A DNA stretch of 60,387 nucleotides from the IMG/VR virus record IMGVR_UViG_3300050014_001170, positions 1 to 60,387 of that record, one strand, 5' to 3'. The position numbers and the translations under genes are program-made. The notes beneath the pieces are model-generated. The model saw only the letters and a list, made by a program, of their open reading frames with translations, was not told the origin of the DNA and ran no database searches. Below, one piece after another: positions 17,174-52,838 of this stretch (positions within the stretch are counted from its first letter, which is position 1; the number at the start of each line of letters is the position of its first letter). This DNA comes from a virus.

Positions 17174-17914
17174 TTAGGTATATTTAGAAATATGTAATTT
17201 TTCTTCAAGTATTTTTTCATTCCAAAATTCATAAAAATCTTTTAAATGGTTTCTATCGTAATCCCAAATCTCATCCCAGACTTCTTTCTCAGCAGTTTCT
17301 TTAATTGTTTCTATAGAAATTCCATCAAAGAATTTGGTAACCAATTTTATATAAATACTTTTATCACAAATTTCAATAAGAGCTTTTCTTTTATCTTTTT
17401 TGGTTTCATAATTTTCATCAAGATCTTTTGGATTAAGTTCTGCATTAAAAGCTTTGTGATAATCTTCTAGAGTCCATCTAAGCATATTAAAGTAATGTTC
17501 CAATTCAGGTTTCCAATAGGTATATTCCACTTCTCTCTTTTTCCACTCATTTCCGCATTCACACTTATTAATTGGATTGGTATCTATTTTTCCACTACTG
17601 TGACCACTAATATATCCTCCAGTTCCAAAAAGATTTCCACTCATACTTCCTTCCATGGATCCTTCAAATTTTCCTTGGAGCCGATTAATTCGATCATTAA
17701 TTTTTTTGGATCCACATTTAGGACATTCATCATTTATCCACGAAGCGATTTTTTTAGAACTTTCATTTTTAGTATCCGCTTCTTTATCAGCACGATCTTT
17801 GAGAATTTTATATTCCTCTTTAATTTTTTTGAATTTGAGAGTAGCAAGTTTTTCTGTTTCTAAACGTTTAACCTCTCTTTGAGTTTTTCTTTTCTGAAAT
17901 CCAAATAAGTCCAT
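17174..17914 (-). CDS. zinc-ribbon protein with Gly/Ser linker (246 aa)
   Basis: An N-terminal Lys/Glu coiled coil (residues 5-55) is followed by CPKCGSKK and CECGNEWKKR, which together make a zinc ribbon interrupted by a Gly/Ser-rich insert (EGSMSGNLFGTGGYISGHSSG). The C-terminal 100 residues are helical and acidic. First gene of the leftward operon next to the divergent control region. Function unknown. Confidence 0.6.
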   Translation of the reverse strand: MDLFGFQKRKTQREVKRLETEKLATLKFKKIKEEYKILKDRADKEADTKNESSKKIASWINDECPKCGSKKINDRINRLQGKFEGSMEGSMSGNLFGTGGYISGHSSGKIDTNPINKCECGNEWKKREVEYTYWKPELEHYFNMLRWTLEDYHKAFNAELNPKDLDENYETKKDKRKALIEICDKSIYIKLVTKFFDGISIETIKETAEKEVWDEIWDYDRNHLKDFYEFWNEKILEEKLHISKYT

Positions 17915-18223
17915 ATGATATATTTTAGGGAACCAATATACGAAATCTTTTCGAAATAAAAAAATATTTATTGAATTATTTTTTCAGGGCTGTATCTATT
18001 AATAATTCGCGGGTCGTGCGCGCTCGCGACTAAAGAACCAAATTTTTCCTTTCTTACATATAAAGAGATTTTTTCCTTCTCTCTTAGACACTTATTTTAT
18101 GCAACTCCTGGAAAAAGTTTTGTTAAAATCTGTTAAAAAAGTTAATTTTTCGTTAAATATGTTTTTTAATGTGAGAATTTTGTTGTACATTTGTCCTGAA
18201 TAAATAAAGCAAAGATATTATCA
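17915..18223 (+). other. divergent control region between leftward and rightward genes
   Basis: 309 nt without a gene, where transcription direction flips. It holds a leftward promoter box TATATTGG (17940-17933), an isolated GC-rich near-palindrome at 18013-18030 (GTCGTGCGCGCTCGCGAC) in an otherwise AT-rich sequence, and four GTTAA repeats plus the rightward box TACATTTG (18186-18193). It could be a regulatory hub, an origin, or a recombination site; sequence alone does not decide. Confidence 0.6.
18122..18193 (+). promoter_or_regulatory. promoter with four phased GTTAA boxes
   Basis: GTT of the GTTAA boxes begins at 18122, 18132, 18141 and 18152, 9-11 nt apart, and the last box ends 32 nt before TACATTTG (18186-18193). 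Same geometry as the promoter at 24397-24449; the TTAAC-type promoters elsewhere in the window carry the boxes on the other strand. Confidence 0.6.
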
Positions 18224-18802
18224 ATGAAACTTGTAAAAGAAAATTTAATGGAAGGGGTGGCTGATAAGGTTTATCCTAATTTTAATATTCCCGGGGATTT
18301 TGATAATTTCGAAAAAATTTATGCTGAACAAGAAATTAAGAAGGAAGAAACCAAAATGAGCAATATAGAATTTGAAAAAAAAGATAATTGGTCTCTTATA
18401 AAAAATCCAGTATCCCTTCAAAATTTTGGTCCTTCTATCAGAGGTGTTATTATGGAGAATGGGGATTTCTATTTAGAAAATGTATCCGGGGTAATTCATA
18501 ATGATATACTGGACATTCTTTATAAAAAAGGAGTTATAAAAGAGCCGGTTAAAAGAAATTGGGGTCGCAAATTTCCTTTTGAAACAGAATTTTTAACTGT
18601 TCAAAGATATGGTGATTCAAATAATATTACTATTGGGGAGAGTAATAAAGCTATTTATGTGGAATCCGAATATAATAAAAATAGACATTACTACACAGAA
18701 TTTATGAACAAGGCTAAAAAGAAATGTCCAAATATAAATTTCATAGATAAATTAATAGGAATAAAATATCTTAAAGAAGCAAAAGGATTTCATATTTTAT
18801 AA
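18224..18802 (+). CDS. unrecognised protein (192 aa)
   Basis: First gene of the rightward half, 30 nt downstream of a boxed promoter. Soluble alpha/beta protein with no known motif; residues 40-130 look like one compact domain. Because it sits alone behind a strong-looking promoter it may be an early or regulatory protein, but this is inference. Confidence 0.6.
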   Translation: MKLVKENLMEGVADKVYPNFNIPGDFDNFEKIYAEQEIKKEETKMSNIEFEKKDNWSLIKNPVSLQNFGPSIRGVIMENGDFYLENVSGVIHNDILDILYKKGVIKEPVKRNWGRKFPFETEFLTVQRYGDSNNITIGESNKAIYVESEYNKNRHYYTEFMNKAKKKCPNINFIDKLIGIKYLKEAKGFHIL

Positions 18803-19774: not shown

Positions 19775-20809
19775 ATGAATATACCTTTAACACGAGATGT
19801 TTTTAGAAACTCCGTTTTCGAACGAGATAAACATCTTTGTGTGATATGTAAAGAAGCGGCCTTAGATGCCCATCATATTTTAGAAAGAAGGCTTTTTCCC
19901 GAAGGGGGATACTATCTCAACAACGGAGCATCGCTTTGTGAAAAACATCATTTATTAGCTGAATCTACTCAGCTATCCTGCGATGAAATTCGGCAATCAG
20001 CGGGAATAACAGAGATAGTACTTCCCCCTCATTTTTATACAGATGTTGAATATGATAAATGGGGTAATGAAGTTCTTGCAAATGGTACACGTGTACGCGG
20101 GGAACTATTTAATGATATGTCTGTTCAGAAAATACTTACCCCAGTTTTGGATCTTTTTACTGATAGGGTTAAATATCCTAGAACTTTTCATTTACCCTGG
20201 AGCCCTGGAATGAGTAGAGATGATCGCATGATGGAAAATATAAAAGTTTTTGAAGGGCAGGAAGTTATGATATGTGAAAAACTTGATGGGGAAAATACAA
20301 CTTGGTATAGAGATTATCTTCATGCTCGATCTATAAATTCGGATAATCATCCATCAAGAAATTGGGTTAAAAATCTTTGGGCTCAGAAAGGATATGAGAT
20401 TCCTGAAGGCTGGAGAGTCTGCGGTGAGAATATGTTTGCCAAGCATGCAATTCATTATACTAAGGAAAAAGGAAATGCTTTATCGACATATTTTTATATG
20501 TTTTCAATTTGGGATGAAAAAAATATATGCTTGAGTTGGAAAGAAACAGAAGAATGGGCAGAACTTCTTGAACTTACTTTAGTTCCTGCATTTTATAAAG
20601 GAATTTGGGATATGAAAGTAATAGAGGAGCTTAATAAAAAGATGGAAGCAAATCCTGGAACAATAGAAGGATATGTTGTACGTTTAGCTCGGGAATACCA
20701 TTATTCAGAATTTAGAAATGTATGTGGAAAATATGTTCGAAAAAATCACGTCTCAAATTCACATGGGCATTGGGCTCAACAAAAAATAACTAAAAACGAA
20801 CTGAAATAA
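19775..20809 (+). CDS. HNH nuclease - RNA ligase fusion (344 aa)
   Basis: Residues 12-65 are an HNH domain (FERDKHLCVICKEAALDAHH ... NNGASLCEKHH): C22/C25, H33-H34, C55, H58-H59. From about residue 105 it becomes a nucleotidyltransferase: motif I CEKLDGEN with K169, motif III-like GENMFAKHAIHY, FYMFSIWD, motif IV EGYVVR and motif V GKYVRK, close to the Rnl2/DRB0094 group of RNA ligases. One polypeptide therefore carries a potential cutter and a sealer. It has its own promoter at 19762. Confidence 0.85.
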   Translation: MNIPLTRDVFRNSVFERDKHLCVICKEAALDAHHILERRLFPEGGYYLNNGASLCEKHHLLAESTQLSCDEIRQSAGITEIVLPPHFYTDVEYDKWGNEVLANGTRVRGELFNDMSVQKILTPVLDLFTDRVKYPRTFHLPWSPGMSRDDRMMENIKVFEGQEVMICEKLDGENTTWYRDYLHARSINSDNHPSRNWVKNLWAQKGYEIPEGWRVCGENMFAKHAIHYTKEKGNALSTYFYMFSIWDEKNICLSWKETEEWAELLELTLVPAFYKGIWDMKVIEELNKKMEANPGTIEGYVVRLAREYHYSEFRNVCGKYVRKNHVSNSHGHWAQQKITKNELK

Positions 20810-23868: not shown

Positions 23869-23953
23869 TGTTAAGATTCTGTTAAATTTAACGTTTTTTA
23901 ACGATTAAATTTCCTGAGTAATTTTTTTACTCGGGATTTTTGTTGTATATTTA
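23869..23953 (+). promoter_or_regulatory. terminator-promoter with mirrored GTTAA/TTAAC boxes
   Basis: Two GTTAA boxes (23870 and 23881) and two TTAAC boxes (AAC at 23890 and 23900) form a mirror-symmetric array around GTTAAATTTAAC. Then comes a hairpin (CCTGAGTAA / TTACTCGGG with T loop, 23913-23935) with a T tail, and then the box TATATTTA at 23946-23953. The last TTAAC box is 44 nt from the -7 box, one turn farther than elsewhere. Confidence 0.6.
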
Positions 23954-24396: not shown

Positions 24397-24449
24397 GTTA
24401 AAATATTGTTAAAAATATTTCTTTACTACGGAAATTATTCGTATATTTG
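24397..24449 (+). promoter_or_regulatory. promoter with two GTTAA boxes
   Basis: GTTAA boxes begin at 24397 and 24408 (11 nt apart); the second GTT ends 32 nt before TATATTTG at 24442-24449. Drives the secreted protein at 24499. Confidence 0.65.
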
Positions 24450-24498: not shown

Positions 24499-25176
24499 AT
24501 GAAAACATTTAAATTTTTATTTGGAATTTTAGCTTTATTAGTAATAACAGCTATTAGTGCAAACGCACAGATTGTGGTTACCGAAGGGTCTACCCACAAT
24601 TTCAAGGTAACTACTGACCATTCAGCCGCACCTTTCAATTATGTTTATGGTTGGTCAACTGCTCCTGGTGGCAATACAATTGCTACGGCGGACAAAGCTG
24701 CTACTGATATTAAATTCGTTGTTGCAGGTGCCACCACAATTTCAGTTAGCGAAACTAATCCTCTTGGAGGTTGCGCTACAATCAACAACTTTTTAGTTAC
24801 CGTTCTTGGTATGCAAACATTAGCTTTTACATCAGCTACTTCTCAAAGTTGCGCTAATGTAGCCGCAGTTCTTCCTTTTACCTTTGGCGGGGCAACAGCT
24901 GATTATTATCCTTTGGTTATAAATTATAAAGTAGCTATCAACGGTGCACCTGCAATAGACAGAATAGCAACTTTGGCTTTTGGAGCAACATTCGAACTTC
25001 CTTTAACAGCTGCCGACCGTGCTGACCTGTCTAACCCTGCCGGTCCTTCTTATAATATAGTTGTTACTTTGGTTAGTGCAACTGCTAATTCCGGTACTGT
25101 TACACTTGGAGCAGCAGTTAATACTAACACAGTATTTGACATCCCAGATGCAAACGTAATTATAAAGGTCAATTAA
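24499..25176 (+). CDS. secreted Ig/PKD-like protein, probably abundant (225 aa)
   Basis: Signal peptide ends at SANAQ (residues 1-23). The mature protein is Ala/Thr/Val-rich, low in Lys, with two beta-sandwich-like halves (EGSTHNFKVTTDHS ... VSETNPLGGCATINNFLVTVLG and a second half to the end). It has a strong promoter of its own and a strong terminator right after it. Its third-codon positions use more C/G than neighbouring genes. Together these point to high expression. Likely exported to the periplasm or cell surface. Confidence 0.7.
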   Translation: MKTFKFLFGILALLVITAISANAQIVVTEGSTHNFKVTTDHSAAPFNYVYGWSTAPGGNTIATADKAATDIKFVVAGATTISVSETNPLGGCATINNFLVTVLGMQTLAFTSATSQSCANVAAVLPFTFGGATADYYPLVINYKVAINGAPAIDRIATLAFGATFELPLTAADRADLSNPAGPSYNIVVTLVSATANSGTVTLGAAVNTNTVFDIPDANVIIKVN

Positions 25177-25191
25177 TTACTTATCTACCCT

Positions 25192-25225
25192 GCAAACCCC
25201 AAAACCTCGGGGTTTGCTTTTTTTC
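25192..25225 (+). terminator. strong rho-independent terminator
   Basis: GCAAACCCC and GGGGTTTGC form a perfect 9-bp stem with an 8-nt loop, followed by eight T. It ends the 24499 transcript and probably limits expression of the next two genes. Confidence 0.9.
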
Positions 25226-25276
25226 AAAAAATTTTTCAAAGCATTTTTCTTCAAAAATTTTTCCTCAAAAATACTG

Positions 25277-25834
25277 ATGAAAAAATTAATCGCCATATTA
25301 TTTTTCTTCCTAATTTTCTGGAATGCTCAAGCTCAACAAAGAGTTTTCCGGGGATCAGTACATCAGTATACAATAAAAAATGAAAATCCTTTATATAGTT
25401 TTATTTGGACAACATCCGGAGGAACTTCTTCTTCATTACAAACAAAAGAAATCGCTACTATAAAATGGGACGGATTTACAGGAATTTATACACTTTCCGT
25501 AATTCTTGTAAATAATATCTCTGGTTGTGCAAGTAATCCTATTTCTCTTGAAGTAGAGATAATCGATGGATTAATAATACCTAATGCCTTTACCCCCAAT
25601 GACGATGGACAAAATGATCTATGGATAATTGGAGGATTAGAGGGCTTTCCTGATTTAATTGTAACGATCTTTGATAGTTGGGGAAGAACTATTTTCAGAT
25701 CAGAAAAAGGTTATCCTAAACCCTGGGATGGCGAATGGAAAGGGGTCAGGGTACCAATAGATGCATATTATTATATCATTGATTTAAACAATGGGGATAA
25801 ACTCCTAAAAGGAAGCGTAACACTTATTAGATAA
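25277..25834 (+). CDS. type IX secretion cargo with gliding-motility-type C-terminal domain (185 aa)
   Basis: The start at 25277 gives a good signal peptide (KKLIAILFFFLIFWNAQAQ); the upstream in-frame extension is the terminator tail. Residues 20-100 form a PKD-like domain. From residue 104, LIIPNAFTPNDDGQNDLW ... VTIFDSWGRTIF ... YPKPWDGEWKG ... VPIDAYYYIIDLNNG ... GSVTLIR is the full type B (CHU_C / gliding motility-associated) sorting domain. The protein should be exported by the host type IX system and kept at the cell surface. It is next to its presumed outer-membrane partner. Confidence 0.88.
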   Translation: MKKLIAILFFFLIFWNAQAQQRVFRGSVHQYTIKNENPLYSFIWTTSGGTSSSLQTKEIATIKWDGFTGIYTLSVILVNNISGCASNPISLEVEIIDGLIIPNAFTPNDDGQNDLWIIGGLEGFPDLIVTIFDSWGRTIFRSEKGYPKPWDGEWKGVRVPIDAYYYIIDLNNGDKLLKGSVTLIR

Positions 25835-25839
25835 TAATT

Positions 25840-26814
25840 ATGAAAAAATTAATTTCTTTTTACATCTTAATATTTTTAACTATATCGGTTAAAGGGCAAC
25901 AGGTTCCTATATTTAGCCAATATATGTTCAATAAGTTTTTACTTAATCCAGCTTTAGCTGGAGCAGAAGGATATACATCTTGTACTATTACTTCTAGATT
26001 ACAATGGGCAGGATTTAAAGATGCTCCTGTTACAAATTCTATAAATGCTCAAACTCGACTTACTAAAAAATCTTCAGGAAAAAAGGTTAGTCAGTTCTCA
26101 GATAATTATGGAAAAACAGGGATTGGAATAAATATTTATGATGATCATCGAGGGCTTCTTGCTCAAACTGGGGTTGAATTTACTTATGCATATCATACAA
26201 AAATTGCTGAGAAAGCTCAATTATCTTTTGGCTTAACTTACAGCATGACAAATTTTCGCTTAGATAAATCTAAATTACAATTAAACGAACCGGATAATTA
26301 TTTAACCATGAATAATCTATCACTATGGATAATGGATTTAAATGCTGGGGTTTATTTAACTACTCAGAAAGCATATTTAGGATTTTCAGCAAATCGTATT
26401 TTGCCCGATTATTTAATACCTAGTTCAACTCTTGGAATGGGAAATCCCGAATATGTTGAAATGAAACTCAAAAGAAACTACAATCTTATGGCAGGATATA
26501 GATTTGCACTTGATAAAAACTGGGGGATCGAACCAAGTTGCTTCTTTAAAACTACAGATCAAATTCGGCTTTCTCAGATTGATCTATCCTGTAGAACTTA
26601 TTACAAAAGAGATTTTTGGCTTGGCTTTGGAGTTCGTTCGGGAAATGCTTTAACAGCGAATATGGGGGTTAGGTGGAATAATATCTATTTTGGATATGGA
26701 TATGATTTTACTTTGAATAAGCTTCAAACCTATTCAGCAGGAACTCATGAATTTATCATTACTTTTAAGATTGGTCAAAACGTTTGGAAATATAAATGGT
26801 TAGAAAGATTTTAA
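25840..26814 (+). CDS. sprF: PorP/SprF-family outer membrane protein (324 aa)
   Basis: Signal peptide to KGQQ, then QVPIFSQYMFNKFLLNPALAGAEG ... LQWAGFKDAPVTNSINAQT, the hallmark start of the PorP/SprF family, followed by alternating amphipathic strands up to an aromatic end, as in an outer membrane barrel. Length is normal for the family. In Flavobacterium SprF-like proteins are paired with a type B sorting-domain protein, and here the gene follows one by 5 nt. The phage would thus bring its own anchor for its surface protein. Confidence 0.88.
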   Translation: MKKLISFYILIFLTISVKGQQVPIFSQYMFNKFLLNPALAGAEGYTSCTITSRLQWAGFKDAPVTNSINAQTRLTKKSSGKKVSQFSDNYGKTGIGINIYDDHRGLLAQTGVEFTYAYHTKIAEKAQLSFGLTYSMTNFRLDKSKLQLNEPDNYLTMNNLSLWIMDLNAGVYLTTQKAYLGFSANRILPDYLIPSSTLGMGNPEYVEMKLKRNYNLMAGYRFALDKNWGIEPSCFFKTTDQIRLSQIDLSCRTYYKRDFWLGFGVRSGNALTANMGVRWNNIYFGYGYDFTLNKLQTYSAGTHEFIITFKIGQNVWKYKWLERF

Positions 26815-26843
26815 AATATATTTTTTTATTAAGAATTTTATCG

Positions 26844-26851
26844 TATATTTG
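26844..26851 (+). promoter_or_regulatory. promoter box TATATTTG
   Basis: Simple TAnnTTTG box 15 nt before the ATG at 26867, no TTAAC doublet. Confidence 0.6.
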
Positions 26852-26866
26852 TATAAATAAAAAATT

Positions 26867-27859
26867 ATGAAGAAAGTAAAAATGAATATCAAGGATCTTC
26901 CCATATTAGGGAATGCTCAAATTCCTATTCATCTTATGCATTATTCCCACAAAAAAGATAAAAAGAAATTTTTTCAATCGGGATTTGCTTATTTTGGGGT
27001 TGCTGATGATCAAGCAGATGTAACTGGTTCTGATGGCGAAGACAAAGGATCTCTTGGCGGAAAAATGGGAGGAAATTACGAAATAATTCAGAAAAGAAAA
27101 GAAGATGATATTACACTTATTATTGATGTTGAGGATTTATGGGAACAAATAAGTAATCTTCTTGAAACTGCAGGGGTTAAAGTTCAGTTAGAAGGGATCG
27201 AAGAAACCTATAAAAAATATTGGGCTAAACATGAAAAGCTCAAAGAAATTTCTCAAATGCAAAAAGAAGCAGAAGAAGCTATAAAAAAAGAGGAAAAAGA
27301 AAAGATTAAAGAAGCTGAAGCAAAAATTAAAGAAGTTGAAACAGGGATTAGGGATTTTTCAATACTTACAGATAATGGGTGGGATTTAACTAAGGAAATT
27401 AGCGACTATGACTATCGTTATGATGAAGATTATCGATTTGATTGTAATATTGGAGTTGGGGTAAGAGTTGCTAAAGATGGAGATTGCTATACTTCTAAAC
27501 GTGTAGACTCAGTTCCAACAGTTACCCTTGATATTACTACATGGAAAGGAATTAGTCCTGGGGCTATTCATTATTATGGGGATCTTAAAATTTCTTTACC
27601 TCAATTTGAAAGAGATAATCGTTCAGGACATTTTTGCTCAATGTGGGATATTCCTTTTTTCAAAAATAATAGAATAAATCTTACCCATGTATTGGAACAA
27701 TGGGAAATAGATCGATATCCTGATAGTTATCAAGATATTCGTCTCGGACAACATATTAGGGGTTTTTATGCTCCAGAAGGAGTTAAAAGAGCTGCAGAGG
27801 TATTTTTTGCTGAACATTTTGATCCAGGATGGGATTTTAAAATTGAGGAAAATTACTAA
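26867..27859 (+). CDS. coiled-coil protein of unknown function (330 aa)
   Basis: Residues 110-165 form a long Lys/Glu coiled coil (EETYKKYWAKHEKLKEISQ ... AEAKIKEVETG). N-terminal region has Gly-rich SDGEDKGSLGGKMGGNYE, C-terminal 160 residues are alpha/beta. No known family. Stop overlaps the ATG of the next gene (TAATG). Confidence 0.6.
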   Translation: MKKVKMNIKDLPILGNAQIPIHLMHYSHKKDKKKFFQSGFAYFGVADDQADVTGSDGEDKGSLGGKMGGNYEIIQKRKEDDITLIIDVEDLWEQISNLLETAGVKVQLEGIEETYKKYWAKHEKLKEISQMQKEAEEAIKKEEKEKIKEAEAKIKEVETGIRDFSILTDNGWDLTKEISDYDYRYDEDYRFDCNIGVGVRVAKDGDCYTSKRVDSVPTVTLDITTWKGISPGAIHYYGDLKISLPQFERDNRSGHFCSMWDIPFFKNNRINLTHVLEQWEIDRYPDSYQDIRLGQHIRGFYAPEGVKRAAEVFFAEHFDPGWDFKIEENY

Positions 27860-28452
27860 TGAAAAGAATTACAATAATCGTAATGTATATCATGGAATCC
27901 AAAACTCCATGGAAGGATTTCTTCTGGTTATTAAGAACTCTTTTAAATACTCCAATGATTTTATTTCACGAACTATCTCATATACTAGCTATTATTTTAA
28001 CAAGATGCGATGCTAGTCTGGATCCTAAGAAGTGGTATTTTCTTGCTAAAACCAATACACCTTACATTAATTCTGAAGGAAAAGAATGTATAAAAGCTGG
28101 ATTAGGATTTGCTTTTCCTATTGCTCTTCAAGATTCAAATCCTTGGAAAATTTTAATAGTCGGGGCAGCTCCTTTATTATCTATTTTATTTGATATATTT
28201 CTATGTTTTTATATTCCTTCAAAAATTCATATCCCTTTTGCATTTCAATATGTTATAATGAATTTTATGTTTGCTTATTTGGCTAGCAATTTAATGGAAG
28301 GAGCTTGGCTTAGTAAAGATGATATGAACTGTATTAAAATAGGGTGGAATCAGATAAAACCAGAAATTCATTATAGAGTTCGAAATATTTCAGAAAAAGT
28401 TTTTATTATAAAGAAATTATTCGTACATTTGCATTTATGGAAAGATCGTTAA
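27859..28452 (+). CDS. membrane HExxH protein, M50-like (197 aa)
   Basis: Contains MILFHELSHILAIILTR: an HExxH zinc motif (HELSH) embedded in a hydrophobic helix, as in intramembrane metalloproteases of the M50 type. Two or three further membrane segments follow (WKILIVGAAPLLSILFDIFLCFYI, FAFQYVIMNFMFAYLASNLM). The second M50 metal-ligand motif (NxxPxxxLDG) is not obvious; NLMEGAWLSKDD may replace it. Could cleave host membrane proteins, or be a non-catalytic relative. Confidence 0.6.
   Translation: MKRITIIVMYIMESKTPWKDFFWLLRTLLNTPMILFHELSHILAIILTRCDASLDPKKWYFLAKTNTPYINSEGKECIKAGLGFAFPIALQDSNPWKILIVGAAPLLSILFDIFLCFYIPSKIHIPFAFQYVIMNFMFAYLASNLMEGAWLSKDDMNCIKIGWNQIKPEIHYRVRNISEKVFIIKKLFVHLHLWKDR
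28424..28431 (+). promoter_or_regulatory. promoter box TACATTTG
   Basis: TAnnTTTG box lying inside the end of the membrane-protease gene, five nucleotides before the ATG at 28437. Confidence 0.55.
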
Positions 28453-30588: not shown

Positions 30589-31072
30589 GATTAAGCTCTT
30601 AAAAAAATTCTTAAAAGATTTCAAATATAAAATAACTATTAAGAGGTATATGATTGTTGCATATAACAATCGAACCTATGAAGGGTATAGATTTGTTATT
30701 CCGGAAGTATTTACTTTTTTTGGTGCTAATTATTGGATAAATCAGAATGGGGATAAAGCTAGATATGTTTACGATCTTTATGATATAGCTCTTAGAAAAT
30801 TAGTAATTAATCATCAGCCAATGATAGATGAATTTAATTACGTGAAAAATATCATTCTCAAAACAACAGCTAATTACTCTGCTTCTCTTCGAGTTTATAT
30901 TTTTAATTTTAAAAGAAAATGGGATAGAAGATTTGGAGAAGCTGCTGCAGGTATCTATTTTTTAGATCTTATGGTAATATATAAAATTCAAATGGAAAAA
31001 ACCGGTATAAAATACTTTAATCAAAATAATTCGGATACTTGGACAGAGGAAAAAAATTTAACGAAACTTTAA
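30581..31072 (+). CDS. unrecognised protein (163 aa)
   Basis: The ATG at 30581 overlaps the stop of the zinc protein. Basic N-terminus (MNRIKLLKKFLKDFKYKITIKRY), then aromatic-rich alpha/beta sequence. Its 3' end overlaps the TTAAC boxes of the next promoter. Unknown function. Confidence 0.55.
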   Translation: MNRIKLLKKFLKDFKYKITIKRYMIVAYNNRTYEGYRFVIPEVFTFFGANYWINQNGDKARYVYDLYDIALRKLVINHQPMIDEFNYVKNIILKTTANYSASLRVYIFNFKRKWDRRFGEAAAGIYFLDLMVIYKIQMEKTGIKYFNQNNSDTWTEEKNLTKL

Positions 31073-31113
31073 CATTAAAAATTATTAAAATTTTAATTTT
31101 TTATGTATATTTG
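31060..31113 (+). promoter_or_regulatory. TTAAC-doublet promoter of the PhoB-like regulator
   Basis: AAC of the two TTTAAC boxes at 31060-31062 and 31071-31073 (11 nt apart); 33 nt from the second to TATATTTG at 31106-31113. The gene it drives encodes a DNA-binding protein of the family that reads 11-nt-spaced direct repeats, so autoregulation is likely. Confidence 0.75.
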
Positions 31114-31131
31114 CACTACATTTAATACATT

Positions 31132-31884
31132 GTGAAAATGAAGATTGTAATTTTTACACATGATGCGGAGATTATTAATATATTTAATAGATACACTCGA
31201 GCCGCAGATCCTTCAAAACCTACATATAAAGATTCTGTTCTTCTTCAAAAAGAAACCATAGAGTTAATAACAGCTCGGACAGAAAAAGCATTTTTTGATT
31301 TAATTGCTGATGAATCTATAGAGGGGTTTGCTATTAGTGTTGCATCCTCATTCTCTAAAAAAGCTATCGATTTTATTAAAAGAAGATCTTCCTATGTTCC
31401 AATTCTTTTATATGGAAATATGAAGGATCTTATTTCTATAATGGGGGCAGATATTTATATTCCTTTTGAAGAATCAGGGGATAAGGAATTTTCCTATCAA
31501 AGTCTTTTTGATATTATTGTAAGAAATGTCTCCAATTATACCAAAAATTTTGGAAAACTTCGTAAACTTATGACAAAGATGGCTGAAGTTATTGAGTTTG
31601 ATTCTTGCAAATATGATCCTACTCGAAGAATGCTTTTTCATCAGGGGAAGGAAGTTAAAAAACTTTCAGCAAAAGAAGGGGGCATTCTTGAAATACTTTC
31701 TGTAAATTTTGGTCAGGTAGTTAAGAGAGGAATTATTCTCGAAAAGGTTTGGAAGGTGGATGATTATTTTTCAGGGAGATCTATGGATGTTTATGTTACT
31801 CATTTAAGAAGACTTTTTCAAGAATATGAAATAAATCTTACCATTAAGAATATATCTGGAATAGGTTTAATTCTCGAAGCTTGA
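31132..31884 (+). CDS. OmpR/PhoB-type transcription regulator with degenerate receiver (250 aa)
   Basis: Residues 155-250 are a winged helix of the OmpR/PhoB type: KKLSAKEGGILEILSVN ... VVKRGIILEKVWK ... RSMDVYVTHLRRLF ... IKNISGIGLIL. Residues 1-130 have the alternating strands of a receiver domain, but the expected phospho-acceptor strand reads EGFAISVASS without an Asp and the conserved Lys-Pro is replaced by YIPFEE. It should therefore not depend on phosphorylation. OmpR-family proteins bind tandem direct repeats about 11 bp apart next to promoters; such repeats (TTAAC) occur before this gene and others here. Confidence 0.85.
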   Translation: MKMKIVIFTHDAEIINIFNRYTRAADPSKPTYKDSVLLQKETIELITARTEKAFFDLIADESIEGFAISVASSFSKKAIDFIKRRSSYVPILLYGNMKDLISIMGADIYIPFEESGDKEFSYQSLFDIIVRNVSNYTKNFGKLRKLMTKMAEVIEFDSCKYDPTRRMLFHQGKEVKKLSAKEGGILEILSVNFGQVVKRGIILEKVWKVDDYFSGRSMDVYVTHLRRLFQEYEINLTIKNISGIGLILEA

Positions 31885-39449: not shown

Positions 39450-39505
39450 TTAACGACTTTTTAACAAGTATTATTATTTTTATTAAATATTTTTTCATAT
39501 ATTTG
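39450..39505 (+). promoter_or_regulatory. TTAAC-doublet promoter giving a leaderless mRNA
   Basis: AAC of the boxes at 39452-39454 and 39463-39465 (11 nt apart), 33 nt from the second to TATATTTG at 39498-39505; only four nucleotides separate it from the ATG at 39510. Confidence 0.75.
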
Positions 39506-39509: not shown

Positions 39510-40682
39510 ATGATTAATGCAATATTTGACCTTAGCAATATGTTTTTTAGATCTCTCTTTATTGTAGGGGGATATGGATCTAAACAATACTCTTTTGATA
39601 ATCAAACTGAACTGGATCAATTGATGCGAAAAGTTGCTACTGATGTATCACAAGTAATTCGTATAATAAATCCTTCAAGAGTTATATTTGCTCTTGATTC
39701 TAAATCATGGAGAAAAGATATTTCTATTGATGAGAATGAAGGATATAAGGCTCAGCGTACAAAATCAGGTCTCATTAATTGGGATAACGTTTTTAAGATT
39801 CTTGGGGAATTTGCTGATATTCTTGAAACAAATGGTTTTATTATTTCAAAATTTGATAGAGCTGAGGCTGATGATATTGCAGCTTTATGGAAACAAGAAC
39901 TTCTTTTTAATCAGAATCAGCATGTTATTATAGTATCCGCAGATGAGGATGTAAGACAACTTGTTCAGTTTTATCCTTATACCCCTGAAAAATTTGCATT
40001 TTGTACAGTATTTAATCCATTTTTGCAAGGTAAAAATGCTTTCAAGAAACTTTATGTTCCCGAAAAATATTGGGATGAGTGGATTTTAGATGCTGATCCA
40101 GGTGATTTTTTCAACAGAGGAATTGATGTTGATAAAGAGGATTTCAAAAGAATCCTTAATGAGCCAAAAACAAAACTTGAAAAAATAAACGGAGAAAGAA
40201 TAGTTCTTCGAAAAATATTTTGCGGTGATGATGGCGATAATGTTCCTGCCATTTATACTTGGTTAAATGATAAAGGAAAAGAAGTAAGAATTACTGAATC
40301 TAAATTTGAAAAAATCATGGATTCTCTTGGAGAAAAAACTGATGCTTACGATCTTATGGACCAAAAAGAAATTATTTATGATCAACTTGCAAATATTTCG
40401 GGTCAACGTCCTTCATTTAATATGGCTGATCGGTTGAATCGTCAGCTTCAATTAGTTCATTTAGATCCTCTTATTTTTCCCGAAGAGTTTGTAAAAGTTT
40501 TTCAGGATAAAGTTACAGAAGAACTTGCCAAACCTCAGGTTCATCCTCAAAATTGGAATATGGTTTCAGTGCTTGAAGGAACTAGATATGTTATGGGTAA
40601 TGGAAAATACAAAAAACCTACAACAGAGGCTTCTATTTTTGGAGAAATAGATCGGATAAATCTTAATAAAGCACTTTTTTGA
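39510..40682 (+). CDS. rnh: RNase H-type 5'-3' exonuclease, T4 Rnh-like (390 aa)
   Basis: Acidic residues of the FEN/5' exonuclease family are visible: FDLSN near the start, KFDRAEADDIAALW, IVSADEDVRQL and CGDDGDNVPA (helix-hairpin region). Total length is a little above T4 Rnh (305). It removes RNA primers and 5' flaps during replication. Sits right after the clamp loader, as part of the replication group, behind a TTAAC-doublet promoter. Confidence 0.85.
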   Translation: MINAIFDLSNMFFRSLFIVGGYGSKQYSFDNQTELDQLMRKVATDVSQVIRIINPSRVIFALDSKSWRKDISIDENEGYKAQRTKSGLINWDNVFKILGEFADILETNGFIISKFDRAEADDIAALWKQELLFNQNQHVIIVSADEDVRQLVQFYPYTPEKFAFCTVFNPFLQGKNAFKKLYVPEKYWDEWILDADPGDFFNRGIDVDKEDFKRILNEPKTKLEKINGERIVLRKIFCGDDGDNVPAIYTWLNDKGKEVRITESKFEKIMDSLGEKTDAYDLMDQKEIIYDQLANISGQRPSFNMADRLNRQLQLVHLDPLIFPEEFVKVFQDKVTEELAKPQVHPQNWNMVSVLEGTRYVMGNGKYKKPTTEASIFGEIDRINLNKALF

Positions 40683-46284: not shown

Positions 46285-47088
46285 ATGCTAATGACTAATT
46301 ATCAATTTACATTAAAAAGAAGTCCTATTGATCTTAGAGATTTAATGTTATGCTCTGTTTATTCAGCTGACATAAAACTTCCAACAACCTATGATCTTCG
46401 CCCAGAAATGCCTCCTATTAGGGATCAAGGAAATCAGGGTTCCTGTTCTGCTCAAACAGCTTCTGAAATGAAAGAATGGCAAGAAAGAGCCAATATGGGA
46501 TATGAAAAATATATGTCTCCTCAATTTATTTATAATTTGAGAGAAAATTATGAGGAAGAGGGAATGACCCCAAGGGATACAATGAAAATTCTTAATAAAA
46601 TTGGAGTTGTTTATGAAAAAAATTATACATATGGAAAAATAGAACGACTTGATCCCAGCAGTATGAGCCTTGAACTTTTAAATGAAGCTGCTAGGTATAT
46701 AATTTCAGGATATGCAAGAATTAATTCGGTTGAGGGATTAAAAAAAGCTTTATTTACTAATGGTCCTTGCTATATGGCATTTCCAGTTTATAATCCTGAA
46801 AAATGGGAATTCTGGAAACCTGATTATGCAGGGCAGAAAGCATTAGGAGGACATGCAGTTTCTGCTGTTGGTTGGTTGAAAAATAGTTTTATTATTCGTA
46901 ATCACTGGACTGATCAATGGGCAGATAATGGATATACCTATCTTAAATTTACCGATTGGGGTATGCAATGGGAAGCTTGGACAACTATTGATGCAGATTC
47001 TCTAGAAAATTTTAATAGAAAAGCAGTTGCAACCTATGATTTACCAGGATTTTTTGCTAAACTTTTTTATAAAAATTTACATAAATAA
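46285..47088 (+). CDS. papain-like (C1A) cysteine peptidase (267 aa)
   Basis: DLRPEMPPIRDQGNQGSCSAQTASEM contains the catalytic Cys (C54, after DQGxQGSC). GGHAVSAVGW carries the catalytic His and FIIRNHWTDQW the Asn, where the usual NSWG reads NHWT. No signal peptide, so cytoplasmic or virion-associated. Paralogue of the protein at 57978, sharing the KEWQE and SPQFIYN segments. Confidence 0.82.
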   Translation: MLMTNYQFTLKRSPIDLRDLMLCSVYSADIKLPTTYDLRPEMPPIRDQGNQGSCSAQTASEMKEWQERANMGYEKYMSPQFIYNLRENYEEEGMTPRDTMKILNKIGVVYEKNYTYGKIERLDPSSMSLELLNEAARYIISGYARINSVEGLKKALFTNGPCYMAFPVYNPEKWEFWKPDYAGQKALGGHAVSAVGWLKNSFIIRNHWTDQWADNGYTYLKFTDWGMQWEAWTTIDADSLENFNRKAVATYDLPGFFAKLFYKNLHK

Positions 47089-47701: not shown

Positions 47702-47879
47702 AAAAGTATTTAGCATTATTGATTCATGTAAAACTACAGATCAATTAGAAGGATGCAAAAGATTAGCTTTATCTTATACCAAACTTATAGCTTCAAAAGG
47801 AGTAATAAATTCAGAATTAGTGGGAAAAATATTACAGATAATAATAAATGAAAAGCAAGAAAAATTAACAAAACTTTAA
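47685..47879 (+). CDS. small helical protein (64 aa)
   Basis: Overlaps the previous gene by 17 nt and its 3' end overlaps the next promoter boxes. Helical. Unknown function. Confidence 0.45.
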   Translation: MLVPIKKVFSIIDSCKTTDQLEGCKRLALSYTKLIASKGVINSELVGKILQIIINEKQEKLTKL

Positions 47880-47919
47880 CAAAAAGAAATTTATTATCTT
47901 AAATTTTTTTGTATATTTG
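47866..47919 (+). promoter_or_regulatory. TTAAC-doublet promoter
   Basis: AAC of the boxes at 47867-47869 and 47878-47880, 11 nt apart; 32 nt to TATATTTG at 47912-47919. Confidence 0.7.
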
Positions 47920-48596: not shown

Positions 48597-48654
48597 TTTT
48601 AACGAATTTTTAACGAAATAAGTTTTTGTTCTTTGAGATTTTTTAGTATGTTTG
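48597..48654 (+). promoter_or_regulatory. TTAAC-doublet promoter
   Basis: TTTTAACGA boxes with AAC at 48601-48603 and 48612-48614 (11 nt); 33 nt to TATGTTTG at 48647-48654. Confidence 0.75.
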
Positions 48655-48952: not shown

Positions 48953-49024
48953 GGCGCTGATGCTCAATGGATGGGTACCGGTCTGCAAAACCGGATTAGA
49001 TGGGTTCGATTCCCACCGGCGCCT
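48953..49024 (+). tRNA. tRNA-Cys(GCA)
   Basis: Acceptor GGCGCTG pairs with CGGCGCC, anticodon stem CCGGT/ACCGG with loop CTGCAAA, T arm GTTCGATT. First tRNA of the array. Confidence 0.9.
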
Positions 49025-49026
49025 CT

Positions 49027-49096
49027 AGGTTGTAGTAAGATAATGGGTTACTTCGCTTTGGTTGCAAAATTACACCCTGTTCAAATTTCTCAACTT
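49027..49096 (+). ncRNA. GTAG/TTACTTCG element, copy a
   Basis: Outer helix AGGTTG/CAACTT, inner helix GGGT/ACCC, conserved GTAGTAAG upstream of the inner helix, TTACTTCG just after it, and TTCAAATTTCTCA after the 3' inner strand. Same layout as copies b and e with different helix sequences. Family unknown. Confidence 0.6.
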
Positions 49097-49141
49097 AACT
49101 ATTAAAGGTAAGTAACGATGCTAAGGGAACCTTCAAATAAT

Positions 49142-49181
49142 GTAGGATAAAAGTTAAAACCAGTATAGATCTGGATCCTAC
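49142..49181 (+). ncRNA. small hairpin with 7-bp closing helix
   Basis: GTAGGAT pairs perfectly with ATCCTAC and encloses CCAG-TATAGAT-CTGG, a 4-bp stem with a 7-nt loop. Noncoding; unassigned. Confidence 0.4.
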
Positions 49182-49188
49182 AAAAATT

Positions 49189-49268
49189 AAGCTGTAGTGA
49201 GTAAAGAGGTTACTTCGTGAGATTCCAAAACATCTAATAAAAGACACCTCTTTCAAATTTCTCAGTTT
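49189..49268 (+). ncRNA. GTAG/TTACTTCG element, copy b
   Basis: Outer helix AAGCTG/CAGTTT, inner helix AAAGAGGT/ACCTCTTT (8 bp), conserved GTAGTGAG, TTACTTCG and TTTCAAATTTCTCA in the same positions as copy a. Confidence 0.65.
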
Positions 49269-49272
49269 TAAT

Positions 49273-49346
49273 GCCGATGTAGCTCAGTTGGTCAGAGCAG
49301 CGCACTTGTAATGCGCAGGTCGGGGGTTCGAATCCCTTCATCGGCT
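49273..49346 (+). tRNA. tRNA-Thr(TGT)
   Basis: Acceptor GCCGATG/CATCGGC, anticodon stem GCGCA/TGCGC with loop CTTGTAA, canonical D and T arms. Confidence 0.95.
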
Positions 49347-49495
49347 CAAAGTACATGAATTCCTTAAGTGGGGTTTTGGAGAAAAGTAATTACGTAATAT
49401 CTTCTCTCGGGTATATTGGCAGCTTGCGATAGCATCGCATTGAAAGAAAATGCAACTGTAGCCACGATCAGTTTTTCAACATGTATTTTAAAAAT
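49347..49495 (+). other. 149-nt gap with hairpins
   Basis: No gene. Contains GAGAA/TTCTC, TGCGAT-AGC-ATCGCA and ACTG/CAGT hairpins. Possibly processed spacer RNA; nothing identified. Confidence 0.35.
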
Positions 49496-49569
49496 TGCCC
49501 TATGGTGTAATAGGTTAACATACCGCACTTTGGATGCAGTGAGTGTAGGTTCGAACCCTACTGGGGCAA
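49496..49569 (+). tRNA. tRNA-Gln(TTG)
   Basis: Acceptor TGCCCTA/TGGGGCA, anticodon loop CTTTGGA, T arm with TTCGAAC. Confidence 0.9.
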
Positions 49570-49579
49570 CGAAATGTTC

Positions 49580-49618
49580 CTATATCGTCAAAGGTTAGCT
49601 ACCGGCGATAGAATATAG
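49580..49618 (+). ncRNA. hairpin in tRNA spacer
   Basis: CTATATCG pairs with CGATA(GAA)TATAG around GGT-TAGCT-ACC. A further CTCGAG pair at 49670/49680 forms another hairpin before the next tRNA. Unassigned. Confidence 0.35.
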
Positions 49619-49689
49619 AGAGCGATAGATAGGTCCGGACTTAATTCTATCTTACCTTACTCGAGGTGGTAAAAGTACTCTCGAGACTT

Positions 49690-49762
49690 CGGGGTGTGGC
49701 CTAATTGGCAAGGTACTACATTTGGGATGTAGGGAGTGTGGGTTCGAGTCCCGCCACCCCGA
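49690..49762 (+). tRNA. tRNA-Pro(TGG)
   Basis: Acceptor CGGGGTG/CACCCCG, anticodon stem CTACA/TGTAG with loop TTTGGGA (G37 as in true tRNA-Pro). Confidence 0.9.
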
Positions 49763-49770
49763 CTAAAATT

Positions 49771-49927
49771 GAGGTATCTACCCTTGTGAAGAAAGGGGCC
49801 TGGCGGTCAACCCAGGTGCGGATTATTCTGATAAGGAAAAAATAGTATATCGGAAATCTATCTATAAGTGTACATAAAAATAGAAAGTAAGATATATGAA
49901 AATAGGGTTCAAATCCCCCATACCTCA
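49771..49927 (+). ncRNA. tRNA-like RNA with long insertion
   Basis: GAGGTAT at 49771 pairs perfectly with ATACCTC at 49920, and arms resembling a D stem (CCCTT/AAGGG), an anticodon stem (CCTGG/CCAGG) and a T loop (GGG-TTCAAAT-CCC) occur in order. The anticodon loop has 8 nt (CGGTCAAC) and about 85 nt are inserted before the T arm. Either a tRNA gene with an insertion or a decayed tRNA. Confidence 0.45.
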
Positions 49928-49945
49928 CTAATTTAAATTAATAAA

Positions 49946-50254
49946 ATGGGAAAAGAGGAAATTAAAAAAGAATTTATTGAATGCGAATGTGGCACTCATC
50001 TATTACAAATTATTCATAATGCTGAGTATTTTGATGATATAGAAACAAATAAACAAAGAATTCGTCAAGAATTTTGGTTAGCAATGTTTAATTACGGAAA
50101 TCAAAAACCAAGTTTTTGGCAAAGAATAAGAATTATTTGGAATTATCTCAAAACTGGAAAAATGCATGAGGATCAAATGATTCTTACTACAGAAGAAGCT
50201 CAGAAACTTGCAATTTTTATAAATAATAATATTATTGAAACAGAAAAAGATTGA
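49946..50254 (+). CDS. unrecognised protein inside the tRNA array (102 aa)
   Basis: Soluble protein with CECGTHLLQIIHNAEYF near the start and a helical end; beta-alpha. It resembles accessory proteins of unknown role. Not a homing endonuclease by motif, although it lies among tRNAs. Confidence 0.55.
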   Translation: MGKEEIKKEFIECECGTHLLQIIHNAEYFDDIETNKQRIRQEFWLAMFNYGNQKPSFWQRIRIIWNYLKTGKMHEDQMILTTEEAQKLAIFINNNIIETEKD

Positions 50255-50370
50255 ATGTATATTAAAGCGAAGCCTGGAATACACGGATCTGCAGAATCCT
50301 AATAGCTTGGGGGATACGAATTGCTAAATGACCAGTATTATATATGTTCCCTAATATGCATTTTTTAAAT

Positions 50371-50441
50371 TGTCCTCTCGAATAATGGTAGTTCACATGT
50401 CTCTGGAACATGGAGTTTGGGTTCGAATCCCGCGAGGACAA
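50371..50441 (+). tRNA. tRNA-Gln(CTG)
   Basis: Acceptor TGTCCTC/GAGGACA, anticodon stem CATGT/ACATG with loop CTCTGGA, T arm GGGTTCGAATCCC. Confidence 0.9.
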
Positions 50442-50489
50442 CCACGGATTTTTGAGTATCGAACATGAATATATAAATAAAATATATTC

Positions 50490-51098
50490 ATGACTAAAAA
50501 ATTTAATTATTTTTATAGAGTAGAAAATCTCATTAATGGAAAATTTTATTTTGGCGTACATAGTACAAATAATTTGGAAGATAAGTATTTAGGTTCAGGA
50601 AAACGAATATCATATGCTATAAAAAAATACGGTAAAAATAATTTTCAAAAAGAAATTTTAGAAAGCTTTGAGACTTTTAAGAAAGCTTTGGATTATGAAG
50701 AATTTATTGTTTCCGAAGAATTATTAAAAGATCCCAGTTGTTATAATTTGATGAAAGGCGGAAAAGGAGGAAATAACGGTAGAGGAGAAGAATGGTATAA
50801 ACAGCATTGTTCAGAAGCTGGAAAAAATTGTATGAAAGATCCTATTTATAGAGAAATTTTTATAAAAAAACAACGGGAGAATTGGAAAAATATTTCTATT
50901 CATACAGGATTTAAAGATAAAAAACATTCAGAAGAAGCCAAAAAGAATATAGGTAAAGGAAATTCTTTATCTCAAAAAGGAGAAAAAAATTCTCAATTCG
51001 GAACTTGCTGGATAACAAATGGAATTAATAATATGAAAATTCCAAAAGATGAATTAAATCTCTGGCTCCAAGAAAATTGGAAAAGGGGAAGAGTATAA
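50490..51098 (+). CDS. GIY-YIG homing endonuclease (202 aa)
   Basis: YFYRVENLINGKFYFGVHSTNN is the GIY-YIG core; KYLGSGKRISYAIKKYGKNNFQKEIL contains the catalytic Arg/Glu region. A helix-turn tail (HSEEAKKNIGKGNS) follows. It stands between tRNA-Gln(CTG) and the Ser tRNA element, a typical insertion in phage tRNA arrays. Confidence 0.85.
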   Translation: MTKKFNYFYRVENLINGKFYFGVHSTNNLEDKYLGSGKRISYAIKKYGKNNFQKEILESFETFKKALDYEEFIVSEELLKDPSCYNLMKGGKGGNNGRGEEWYKQHCSEAGKNCMKDPIYREIFIKKQRENWKNISIHTGFKDKKHSEEAKKNIGKGNSLSQKGEKNSQFGTCWITNGINNMKIPKDELNLWLQENWKRGRV

Positions 51099-51253
51099 AC
51101 TGTAGTAATGTTAAGAGTTACTTCGATCTGTCTTGAAAACAGGTGTCCGTAAGGACGTGGAGGTTCGAGTCCTTCTACTCTTGGGGAACTTAGGGTATGA
51201 CGAAATTGGTAGACGTGCTTTAGAAAAAACACTCTAAACGACTTTCTCAGTTT
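51097..51253 (+). ncRNA. GTAG/TTACTTCG element, copy c, with embedded tRNA-Ser-like part
   Basis: 5' AAACTG (51097) pairs with 3' CAGTTT (51248); GTAGTAATG, AGAGT and TTACTTCG follow as in copies a, b and e, and ACTCT plus GACTTTCTC precede the 3' strand. The apical part is much longer and contains the tRNA-Ser-like sequence at 51113 and a degraded tRNA-Leu-like sequence. Confidence 0.5.
51113..51183 (+). tRNA. tRNA-Ser(TGA) lacking a D arm
   Basis: Acceptor AAGAGT/ACTCTT (6 bp), anticodon stem CTGT/ACAG with loop CTTGAAA, long variable arm GTCC-GTAA-GGAC and T arm GGAGG-TTCGAGT-CCTTC are all present, but only eight nucleotides (ACTTCGAT) stand where the D arm should be. Confidence 0.6.
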
Positions 51254-51258
51254 AAATT

Positions 51259-51333
51259 CGGGGTACGATCCACATGGTGAGGTTGCCGGCATTGGAAGCC
51301 GGATTATTGGGGGTTCGAGTCCCTCTATCCCGA
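51259..51333 (+). tRNA. tRNA with anticodon TGG (Pro-like)
   Basis: Acceptor CGGGGTA/TATCCCG (one G-U), anticodon stem CCGGC/GCCGG with loop ATTGGAA, T arm GGGGG-TTCGAGT-CCCTC. The D arm is weak and A37 differs from usual tRNA-Pro, so the identity is tentative. Confidence 0.65.
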
Positions 51334-51352
51334 CTAAATTGTTTGCTTAAAT

Positions 51353-51467
51353 ATGAATGTATGCGTAGGCGATTACAGCCTTCATAAGTAGCAGCCGGTG
51401 CAAACCGTGGTTAAGTCCTGCTTCCAATAACGAAACGCATAAGCCGATCAAGCGGAAAAACATTCAT
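51353..51467 (+). ncRNA. structured RNA with nested closing helices and 16S-like phrases
   Basis: ATGAATGT (51353) pairs with ACATTCAT (51460), and inside ATGCGT pairs with ACGCAT. The interior reads AGCAGCCG and GGTTAAGTCC followed by AATAACGA, phrases also found in conserved 16S rRNA regions. Noncoding; no family recognised. Confidence 0.5.
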
Positions 51468-51474
51468 GGTAAAG

Positions 51475-51556
51475 ATAACTATTTGATCCAGTCTCTACAG
51501 GGTAGTTCATTACTGCACTGTATGTACGAAGGTATAAAACGCTTGGGGATAGTTAT
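51475..51556 (+). ncRNA. structured RNA with 8-bp closing helix
   Basis: ATAACTAT at 51475 pairs perfectly with ATAGTTAT at 51549, with an internal CAGT/ACTG stem. Unassigned. Confidence 0.4.
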
Positions 51557-51590
51557 TCCACTTGATAATTTGGACAAACAATTTAATTTT

Positions 51591-51666
51591 GCCCTCTTAG
51601 CAGAAATGGCACGTGCATCACACTTAGGATGTGATAATTATGTGGGTTCGAATCCCACAGAGGGTA
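51591..51666 (+). tRNA. tRNA-Leu(TAG)
   Basis: Acceptor GCCCTCT/AGAGGGT (G1-U72), anticodon stem ATCACA/TGTGAT with loop CTTAGGA, T arm GTGGG-TTCGAAT-CCCAC. The variable arm is short, unlike normal tRNA-Leu. Confidence 0.85.
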
Positions 51667-51727
51667 CAAAAATTCAAGTCTGGCATCTATGCCATTTTTA
51701 TCATAAATATATAGAATAAATAAAATT

Positions 51728-52558: not shown

Positions 52559-52619
52559 CCCAACTAGGCAGATCAGACTTAAACCCTGTACAGTATCGGT
52601 TCGAATCCGATAGGGAGTA
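52549..52619 (+). tRNA. tRNA-Leu(TAA)
   Basis: Acceptor GCTCCCT/AGGGAGT (G1-U72), anticodon loop CTTAAAC with an imperfect stem (A-C mismatch), T arm TCGGTTCGAATCCGA. Short variable arm. First ten nucleotides overlap the endonuclease gene. Confidence 0.8.
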
Positions 52620-52623
52620 CAAA

Positions 52624-52697
52624 CGGAATGTATATCAGTTGGCTAGATTACCTGATTAGGGTTCAGGAGGTCGAGGGTTCGAGTCTCTCCATTCCGA
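52624..52697 (+). tRNA. tRNA-Pro(AGG)
   Basis: Acceptor CGGAATG/CATTCCG, anticodon stem CCTGA/TCAGG with loop TTAGGGT, giving anticodon AGG, rare outside tRNA-Arg(ACG) for A34. T arm GAGGG-TTCGAGT-CTCTC. Confidence 0.75.
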
Positions 52698-52738
52698 CAT
52701 TTTTATTAAAAACATTTTTTTCCTAAGAAATTAATTTG

Positions 52739-52746
52739 TATATTTG
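52739..52746 (+). promoter_or_regulatory. promoter box TATATTTG
   Basis: Consensus TAnnTTTG box after the tRNA-Pro(AGG), upstream of a structured leader and the secreted protein gene at 52839. Confidence 0.6.
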
Positions 52747-52749
52747 CTC

Positions 52750-52838
52750 TATTGAATGAGACAAAGAGTTTGTCAGAAACTTACCCTTAATAAGGTAAAG
52801 CGGAACTCGGCTTAAGGCAGCTGTTAAAATAAAAAAAT
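52750..52838 (+). ncRNA. structured 5' leader
   Basis: GACAAA-GAG-TTTGTC (52760-52774), TTACC/GGTAA (52781-52798) and GCGGAACTCGGC... form successive hairpins between the promoter and the ATG at 52839. It could regulate translation or be a separate RNA; contains GGAACTCGGC, a phrase also present in 23S rRNA. Confidence 0.45.

Follow-up and report, generated by a model that had tools for sequence, protein, structure and literature searches.

The window, by which we mean the whole 60,387-base stretch of viral DNA analysed here, encodes an OmpR/PhoB-type regulator that probably serves as a master switch, independent of any kinase, over part of the phage gene programme, because the phospho-transfer chemistry of its receiver domain has been lost and because a paired TTAAC box is common to its own promoter and several others. 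Our best reading is that of a kinase-independent, MotA-like switch, operated by a pseudo-receiver OmpR/PhoB factor in T4-like Bacteroidota phages. The original prediction had proposed a PhoB-like regulator with a dead receiver, controlled by its own putative boxes; this interpretation is partly supported, since conservation among relatives strengthens it, neither proving it nor making it exclusive.

The virus record carries 15 tRNA genes, T4-type genes (an RNA ligase/tail fibre attachment catalyst, a clamp loader and a recombination exonuclease), members of the type IX secretion families PorP/SprF and CHU_C, and -7 boxes of the form TAnnTTTG, which is given as the Bacteroidota -7 consensus in an excerpt of PMC7366714. 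With these T4-type genes, -7 boxes and secretion families, the window is in all likelihood part of a larger T4-like phage genome, with a putative Bacteroidota host. The two secretion genes lie on the + strand (25214-26814), downstream of a doublet promoter at 24397. The product of the first, 206 aa long, has a CHU_C sorting domain (E 2.5e-19), and the second encodes a PorP/SprF membrane protein (E 1.6e-74); the pair might put a phage protein on the host surface, for example in superinfection exclusion. The 15 tRNA genes form a cluster at 48953-57395, in which Gln, Pro, Leu and Glu each have three; scattered among them are genes that match phage families of endonucleases or Holliday resolvases. 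Two + strand proteins (46285-47085 and 57978-58820) match the phage peptidase family phrog_16701, and the Pfam family Papain family cysteine protease was matched by 2 of 77 window ORFs. A gene at 19775-20809 (+) shows HNH endonuclease similarity in its N-terminal part and RNA ligase similarity in its C-terminal part, and matches phrog_24030 over its whole length. Many window ORFs match no named family.

The regulator and its promoter were delimited as follows.

31138-31884, + strand: regulator gene, 248 aa from an ATG start, with an in-frame GTG at 31132.
31058-31073, + strand: own-promoter TTAAC-N6-TTAAC doublet TTAACGAAACTTTAAC, an exact match to the pattern, found also upstream of 5/5 orthologues near RlaP.
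31106-31113, + strand: -7 box TATATTTG of this promoter, 48 bp downstream of where the doublet starts.

The ATG at 31138 was preferred as the start because relatives begin with MKI or MRI, and the reading frame from 31060 meets a stop at codon 22. The gene had earlier been placed at 31060-31884; the end and the observation made there stand, but the start was wrong, 31060-31131 being promoter. The promoter as a whole occupies 31058-31131 and consists of the doublet, a T-rich run and then the -7 box, and its doublet overlaps the final 15 nt of an ORF that ends at 31072.

The protein is made up of a pseudo-receiver (aa 1-115), a long linking helix (aa 116-145) and an OmpR/PhoB winged helix (aa ~150-248). 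The winged helix was the sole domain recognised by Pfam, with a Trans_reg_C match at E 3.7e-12 (46.6 bits against a curated cut-off of 26.2; aa 176-245 of the GTG form) and no match to Response_reg, and Trans_reg_C was matched by 14/14 family members at E 0.1 or better. An AlphaFold2 model built from a 14-sequence alignment consists of a five-stranded (beta-alpha)5 receiver, the long linking helix and the winged helix; the best model had a mean pLDDT of 80.9 and a pTM of 0.52, the other four scoring 67.0-70.8, and confidence fell below 50 at residues 26-38 and 141-147. The best solved structures found by Foldseek were full-length OmpR/PhoB regulators, RitR and HP1043 among them, and the structural matches from Foldseek and VIA-align included RitR, CosR and HP1043. 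VIA-align matched single receiver domains at Z up to 14.5 over 122 residues and the winged helix at Z up to 15.9. The full-length Foldseek TM-scores were low (0.31-0.44 on the query), which we attribute to the two domains being arranged differently. The C-terminal OmpR/PhoB winged helix that had been predicted is thus borne out by the Trans_reg_C match above cut-off and by the full-length structural matches.

The receiver signature positions, mapped from strand ends in the model and from the family alignment, are T7, H8, S67, G93 (or N94) and I108. S67 stands at the phospho-Asp place at the end of beta-3, T7 and H8 form the place of the acidic pocket after beta-1, and I108 takes the Lys place before the beta-5 Pro. 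Structure prediction, the check suggested at the outset for the receiver half, returned a receiver fold with S67, and no Asp, at the acceptor place. With S67 for the Asp, T7 and H8 for the DD pair and I108 for the Lys, the protein is not a canonical two-component response regulator; as judged from model and alignment, it is a pseudo-receiver that has retained the fold and is missing the key residues. Ser holds the acceptor position in 10 of the 14 family members, Asp in 2, Glu in 1 and His in 1. None of the 14 has the Lys or the first pocket Asp, and the second pocket position is Glu in 8/14 and Asp in 1/14. The description of the receiver as dead fits the window protein, which has neither the phospho-Asp nor the Lys, but needs qualifying for the family: two relatives have Asp and one has Glu at the acceptor place, although these too are without the Lys and the first pocket Asp. 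D105 of the GAD motif is invariant in the family alignment, and part of the usual dimer face may therefore be kept. A single-sequence query of viral contigs returned no close relative of the whole protein, and tblastn of named phage records gave weak partial matches in 20 records, with 80% coverage in none.

The window contains nine copies of the exact pattern TTAAC-N6-TTAAC, where 100 shuffles gave 0.39 on average (sd 0.58) and never more than 2, and a reversed-pattern control gave 0 matches. One-mismatch doublets numbered 15 against 9.97 expected, an excess that is not significant, so that only the exact form is informative. No doublet lies wholly within a listed gene, two share 15 nt with the end of an ORF, and a rightward gene starts 60-105 bp after the doublet at 8/9 sites. 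Besides the regulator's own doublet, the sites are these.

18141-18156, no strand assigned: doublet between divergent genes 17174-17914 (-) and 18224-18802 (+), flanked by TACATTTG at 18186 (+) and CATAAAATAAG at 18101 (-).
23870-23885, - strand: doublet within a TTAAC array upstream of gene 23975.
24397-24412, - strand: doublet in reverse orientation, 45 bp before TATATTTG at 24442 (+), upstream of genes 24499-28452, the CHU_C and PorP/SprF genes among them.
39450-39465, + strand: doublet 48 bp before TATATTTG at 39498, with the exonuclease gene 39510-40682 (phrog_107) downstream.
47865-47880, + strand: doublet 47 bp before TATATTTG at 47912, with gene 47968 downstream; the single orthologue of this gene (in G013) likewise has a doublet.
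48599-48614, + strand: doublet 48 bp before TATGTTTG at 48647, with 48679 and the tRNA cluster downstream.
56260-56275, + strand: doublet 48 bp before TATATTTG at 56308, within the tRNA region.
59164-59179, + strand: doublet followed at 48 bp by an imperfect -7 box, TATATTAC, and then by gene 59246.

Another motif that resembles a promoter, AAACTTTT-N10-18-[CT]ATAWAA, was observed at 18101 (-) and in the related records G013, G054, G055/G056, G059 and G053. One strand of G013 has 10 copies and G054 has 4, where shuffling gives means of 0 and 0.1. A TTAAC doublet stands ~45 bp upstream of some copies, and the motif perhaps marks another temporal promoter class.

Ten related records contain 2-9 doublets each (shuffled means 0.1-0.65). 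One of them (G055) repeats 42.7 kb of another (G056) at 99.98%, so that the ten records represent nine distinct phages and 49 distinct doublet sites. TTAAC elements in these records form 53 pairs at a spacing of 11, where ~2.3 are expected per spacing; the next highest count is 12 pairs at 10, and only 3 pairs fall at 12. Such exact spacing argues against the idea that the doublet is an A+T-rich upstream polymerase element needing no dedicated factor. The promoters are indeed A+T rich throughout, but doublets are absent from G058 and G061, two relatives that are equally A+T rich, and we regard this explanation as very improbable indeed. The distance from the doublet start to TAnnTTTG is 47-49 bp in 17/53 cases, 14 of these at 48, and a -7-like box stands at the usual distance in the forward reading for 27 of the 49 distinct doublets. 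The other 22 comprise the 3 reverse window sites, sites followed by a CATAAAATAAG-like sequence and sites with nothing obvious. In pattern-found loci of other phages the distance likewise centres on 47-49; the composite-promoter search (doublet plus -7 box) allowed 44-52 bp between doublet start and box and so imposed this wider frame, but not the narrow peak. Composite promoters number 5 in the 60-kb window and 13 in the 0.416 Mb of the ten records.

This geometry bears on the sign of the regulation. The regulator could bind the doublets as a repressor that limits its own synthesis and turns early genes off. Genes commonly regulate themselves in either direction, repression would equally leave a conserved box in the gene's own promoter, and the evidence that links regulator and box would be the same; in G056, moreover, the second own-promoter doublet ends 9 bp before the -7 box and could block polymerase. 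The commonest doublet position, however, has its centre ~40 bp ahead of the start of the -7 box; this is beyond the core promoter, a place suited to an activator. Furthermore, 5/6 forward window sites are without TTTG near the -33 place, the sole exception being 48599 (18-bp spacer); -33 boxes are not found in all Bacteroidota, according to an excerpt of PMC7366714. We consider a repressor fairly unlikely.

Twelve relatives were reached via the neighbouring RlaP gene. Five of them have an orthologue of the regulator, in every case (5/5) with one or two exact doublets in its own promoter. When the remaining window genes were examined in those five records, an upstream doublet was present in only 5/120 gene-orthologue pairs (Fisher p 1e-6 against 5/5), and when only starts with free upstream sequence were counted, the regulator scored 3/3 against 3/41 for other genes (p 0.0015). 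Of the genes represented by several orthologues, the regulator is thus the one whose doublet is most conserved. For the exonuclease, just 1/9 records show a doublet at the orthologue, and regulon membership turns over between relatives. A wider, alignment-based family search returned 14 loci, 5 of them the orthologues near RlaP. With the window included, the own-promoter doublet is present in 10/14 family members with upstream sequence (9/13 with L188 and L189 merged); the exact form is absent in L190, which has a near match, and in L192, L195 and L199. That the regulator's own promoter carries the TTAAC doublet, as had been claimed, is accordingly true of the window and of most of the family.

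The records are fragments and the orthologues share descent, so these counts are not independent. In G013, G053, G055 and G057 doublets are present and no orthologue was detected; these records extend at most 2.4 kb upstream of RlaP and stop about where the regulator gene would end. In G058, G060 and G061 (36-40% RlaP identity), whose records span 10 kb on both sides of RlaP, we detected no regulator gene, and 0 doublets occur in 145,939 bases. G061 matches most of G058 at 97-98% identity, and the gene-less, doublet-less relatives therefore amount to two lineages and about 109 kb. Taken together, these comparisons support autoregulation and a phage-encoded reader of the boxes.

The reader might nevertheless be another, unrecognised phage protein, the regulator being merely one of its targets. 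Many window ORFs match no named family, as noted above, and doublet-rich records without an OmpR/PhoB match need some reader. Yet the own-promoter doublet is the most conserved one, as autoregulation predicts; an 11-bp direct repeat is a classic type of OmpR/PhoB site; and the lineages of G001/G020/G027 and of G034 also pair doublets with OmpR/PhoB helices. When the 77 other window ORFs were scanned, no rival bacterial-type transcription factor appeared among 25 of the 31 matched Pfam families, which include two zinc-finger types. We consider an unrecognised reader distinctly improbable.

The doublet promoters of more distant phages were surveyed in 50 viral records with pattern-found loci, taken from a listing of composite-promoter matches. 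PF00486 was absent in 8 of the 12 records with at least 4 composite promoters, and neither the A2 (family) nor the phrog_731 profile found a match in those eight, which carry 4-20 doublet promoters and no detectable OmpR/PhoB gene; seven of them (G007, G010, G024, G026, G032, G038 and G043) carry 7-20 each. Doublets can therefore exist without the regulator family, and another reader, of host or phage, is possible at least there: these eight records use either a host protein or a phage reader missed by the profiles. The original prediction that the regulator is the best candidate for the regulon's activator thus gains from the orthologue doublets and from the lack of a rival in the window scan, but is weakened by the eight doublet-rich records without the family. 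PF00486 co-occurs with at least 4 composite sites in 4/12 against 3/38 of the 50 records (p 0.048), a figure that we gave no weight because three of the four, G001, G020 and G027, share site sequences.

In G034 and in the G001/G020/G027 lineage, 9-11 doublet promoters occur together with a PhoB-type winged helix that has no receiver.

G001, 159858-160187: receiver-less winged helix, in a record with 10 doublet promoters.
G034, 7402-7704: receiver-less winged helix, in a record with 11 doublet promoters.

Their open frames, of 192 aa (136 from the first Met) in the G001 lineage and 132 aa in G034, leave no room for a receiver. The pairing of doublets with a receiver-less PhoB-type helix occurs in a jumbo-phage lineage. 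The winged helices of the window, G001 and G034 match the same phage family, phrog_731, so that these regulators share with ours the winged helix and the doublet promoters, and differ in having no receiver. Unlike most window sites, their listed promoters have TTTG at about the -33 place.

A host OmpR/PhoB regulator, for example PhoB in phosphate starvation, could also read the doublets, in which case the phage promoters would copy the Pho box and the phage protein would do something else. Bacillus PhoP boxes resemble TTAAC repeats on an 11-bp period, and so do the SphR boxes of cyanobacteria. The latter have the core TTAAC and are described as CTTAACCT 8-mers with 3-bp linkers in an excerpt of PMC1906773. 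The many doublet promoters in gene-less phage records fit such a host reader, as does the excess of the composite promoter over its reversed control in 395 Bacteroidia genomes (28 vs 5 sites); this excess could come from prophages or from the common host -7 box. The 28 sites are spread over 26/395 genomes, at most 3 per genome, and are absent from 369. In a separate genome scan for the composite promoter, some of whose loci were used in the PstS test below, most single matches are chance by a rough estimate. Exact doublets, on the other hand, are fewer than the reversed pattern in 40 Bacteroidia genomes (501 vs 1141). With no excess of doublets and at most three composite promoters per genome, there is no large host regulon of the doublet form; host use of the composite promoter on a small scale is possible. 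The exact doublet was found at 0 of 21 PstS-like loci (15/34 genomes), a weak test because only 1/34 genomes had a match above the family cut-off. No Pho-box sequence was found in the accessible portions of a B. fragilis PhoB paper (PMC3547664) and a B. thetaiotaomicron network paper (PMC12596196). The two distant gene-less phage lineages without doublets also speak against a host reader, which we judge quite unlikely.

On balance, we favour the reading that a phage-owned OmpR/PhoB pseudo-receiver factor binds the doublets free of phosphorylation and activates host polymerase, its own promoter included. Members of the OmpR/PhoB family are expected to form a head-to-tail dimer on an 11-bp direct repeat. 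In the scheme of binding, dimerisation, activation and timing that we infer, the regulator would bind TTAAC-N6-TTAAC head to tail as a dimer formed without phosphorylation and, from just upstream of the -33 region, would activate host RNA polymerase at -7-box promoters. If the -7 box starts near -11, the doublet would lie at about -44 to -59, which suggests polymerase contact upstream of the -33 region and not its replacement. With its own promoter as a target, the regulator would reinforce itself once made, and this positive autoregulation would give a sharp switch, turning on a set of phage genes and bypassing any host kinase.

A receiver fold without the phospho-transfer residues, joined to an OmpR/PhoB winged helix, is shared with ChxR, RitR, HP1043 and CosR, the last of which we take to be one of the pseudo-receiver or aspartate-less OmpR/PhoB regulators. 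These four are chromosomal, whereas the window regulator is phage-encoded and has its own promoter class. ChxR acts on tandem repeats and does not need phosphorylation, as described in an excerpt of PMC3960148, and the words 'phage' and 'virus' are absent from the main text of two reviews in the portions available (PMC4395418, PMC12632262). PhoB, PhoP and SphR with their Pho box, which an excerpt of PMC4415409 describes as two 11-nt direct repeat units, share the OmpR/PhoB helix and the 11-bp direct repeat. Unlike them, the window regulator is without a working receiver, and no phosphate gene was recognised among the scanned doublet targets.

Our comparison with T4 MotA concerns the role. MotA is a phage regulator that steers host polymerase to promoters combining a host -10 element with a phage box, and it acts as a monomer, together with AsiA, at a box centred at -30 (excerpt of PMC2988021). 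Common to both cases are a phage regulator and a retained host core element, and the window carries T4-type genes. The window box, in contrast to the MotA box at -30, is a direct repeat, most often starting 48 bp before the -7 box. The AsiA family was not seen among 25 of the 31 Pfam families matched in the window, itself a fragment. The proposed role of the regulator would parallel the MotA switch, while protein and geometry differ. By its sequence and fold features we class it among the pseudo-receiver OmpR/PhoB regulators, as one that is found in a virus and has a promoter class of its own; it may act in a MotA-like way but is not MotA. More tentatively, it is possible that Bacteroidota phages share a promoter class, an 11-bp TTAAC doublet ~48 bp upstream of a -7 box, read by input-stripped OmpR/PhoB proteins that arose through receiver decay in T4-like phages or complete receiver loss in jumbo phages, as a self-reinforcing, kinase-free MotA substitute with type IX secretion components among its targets.

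A literature search, most subscription journals being outside its reach, found no paper on a phage-encoded response regulator, and among the matches listed no doublet-type phage regulon is described, by title and abstract start. To our knowledge, the timing of transcription in Bacteroidota phages is little understood. If our reading is true, it would provide a testable switch and a promoter consensus from which phage regulons could be predicted, and the regulator would be a clear case of viral takeover in which a two-component protein has been freed of its kinase.
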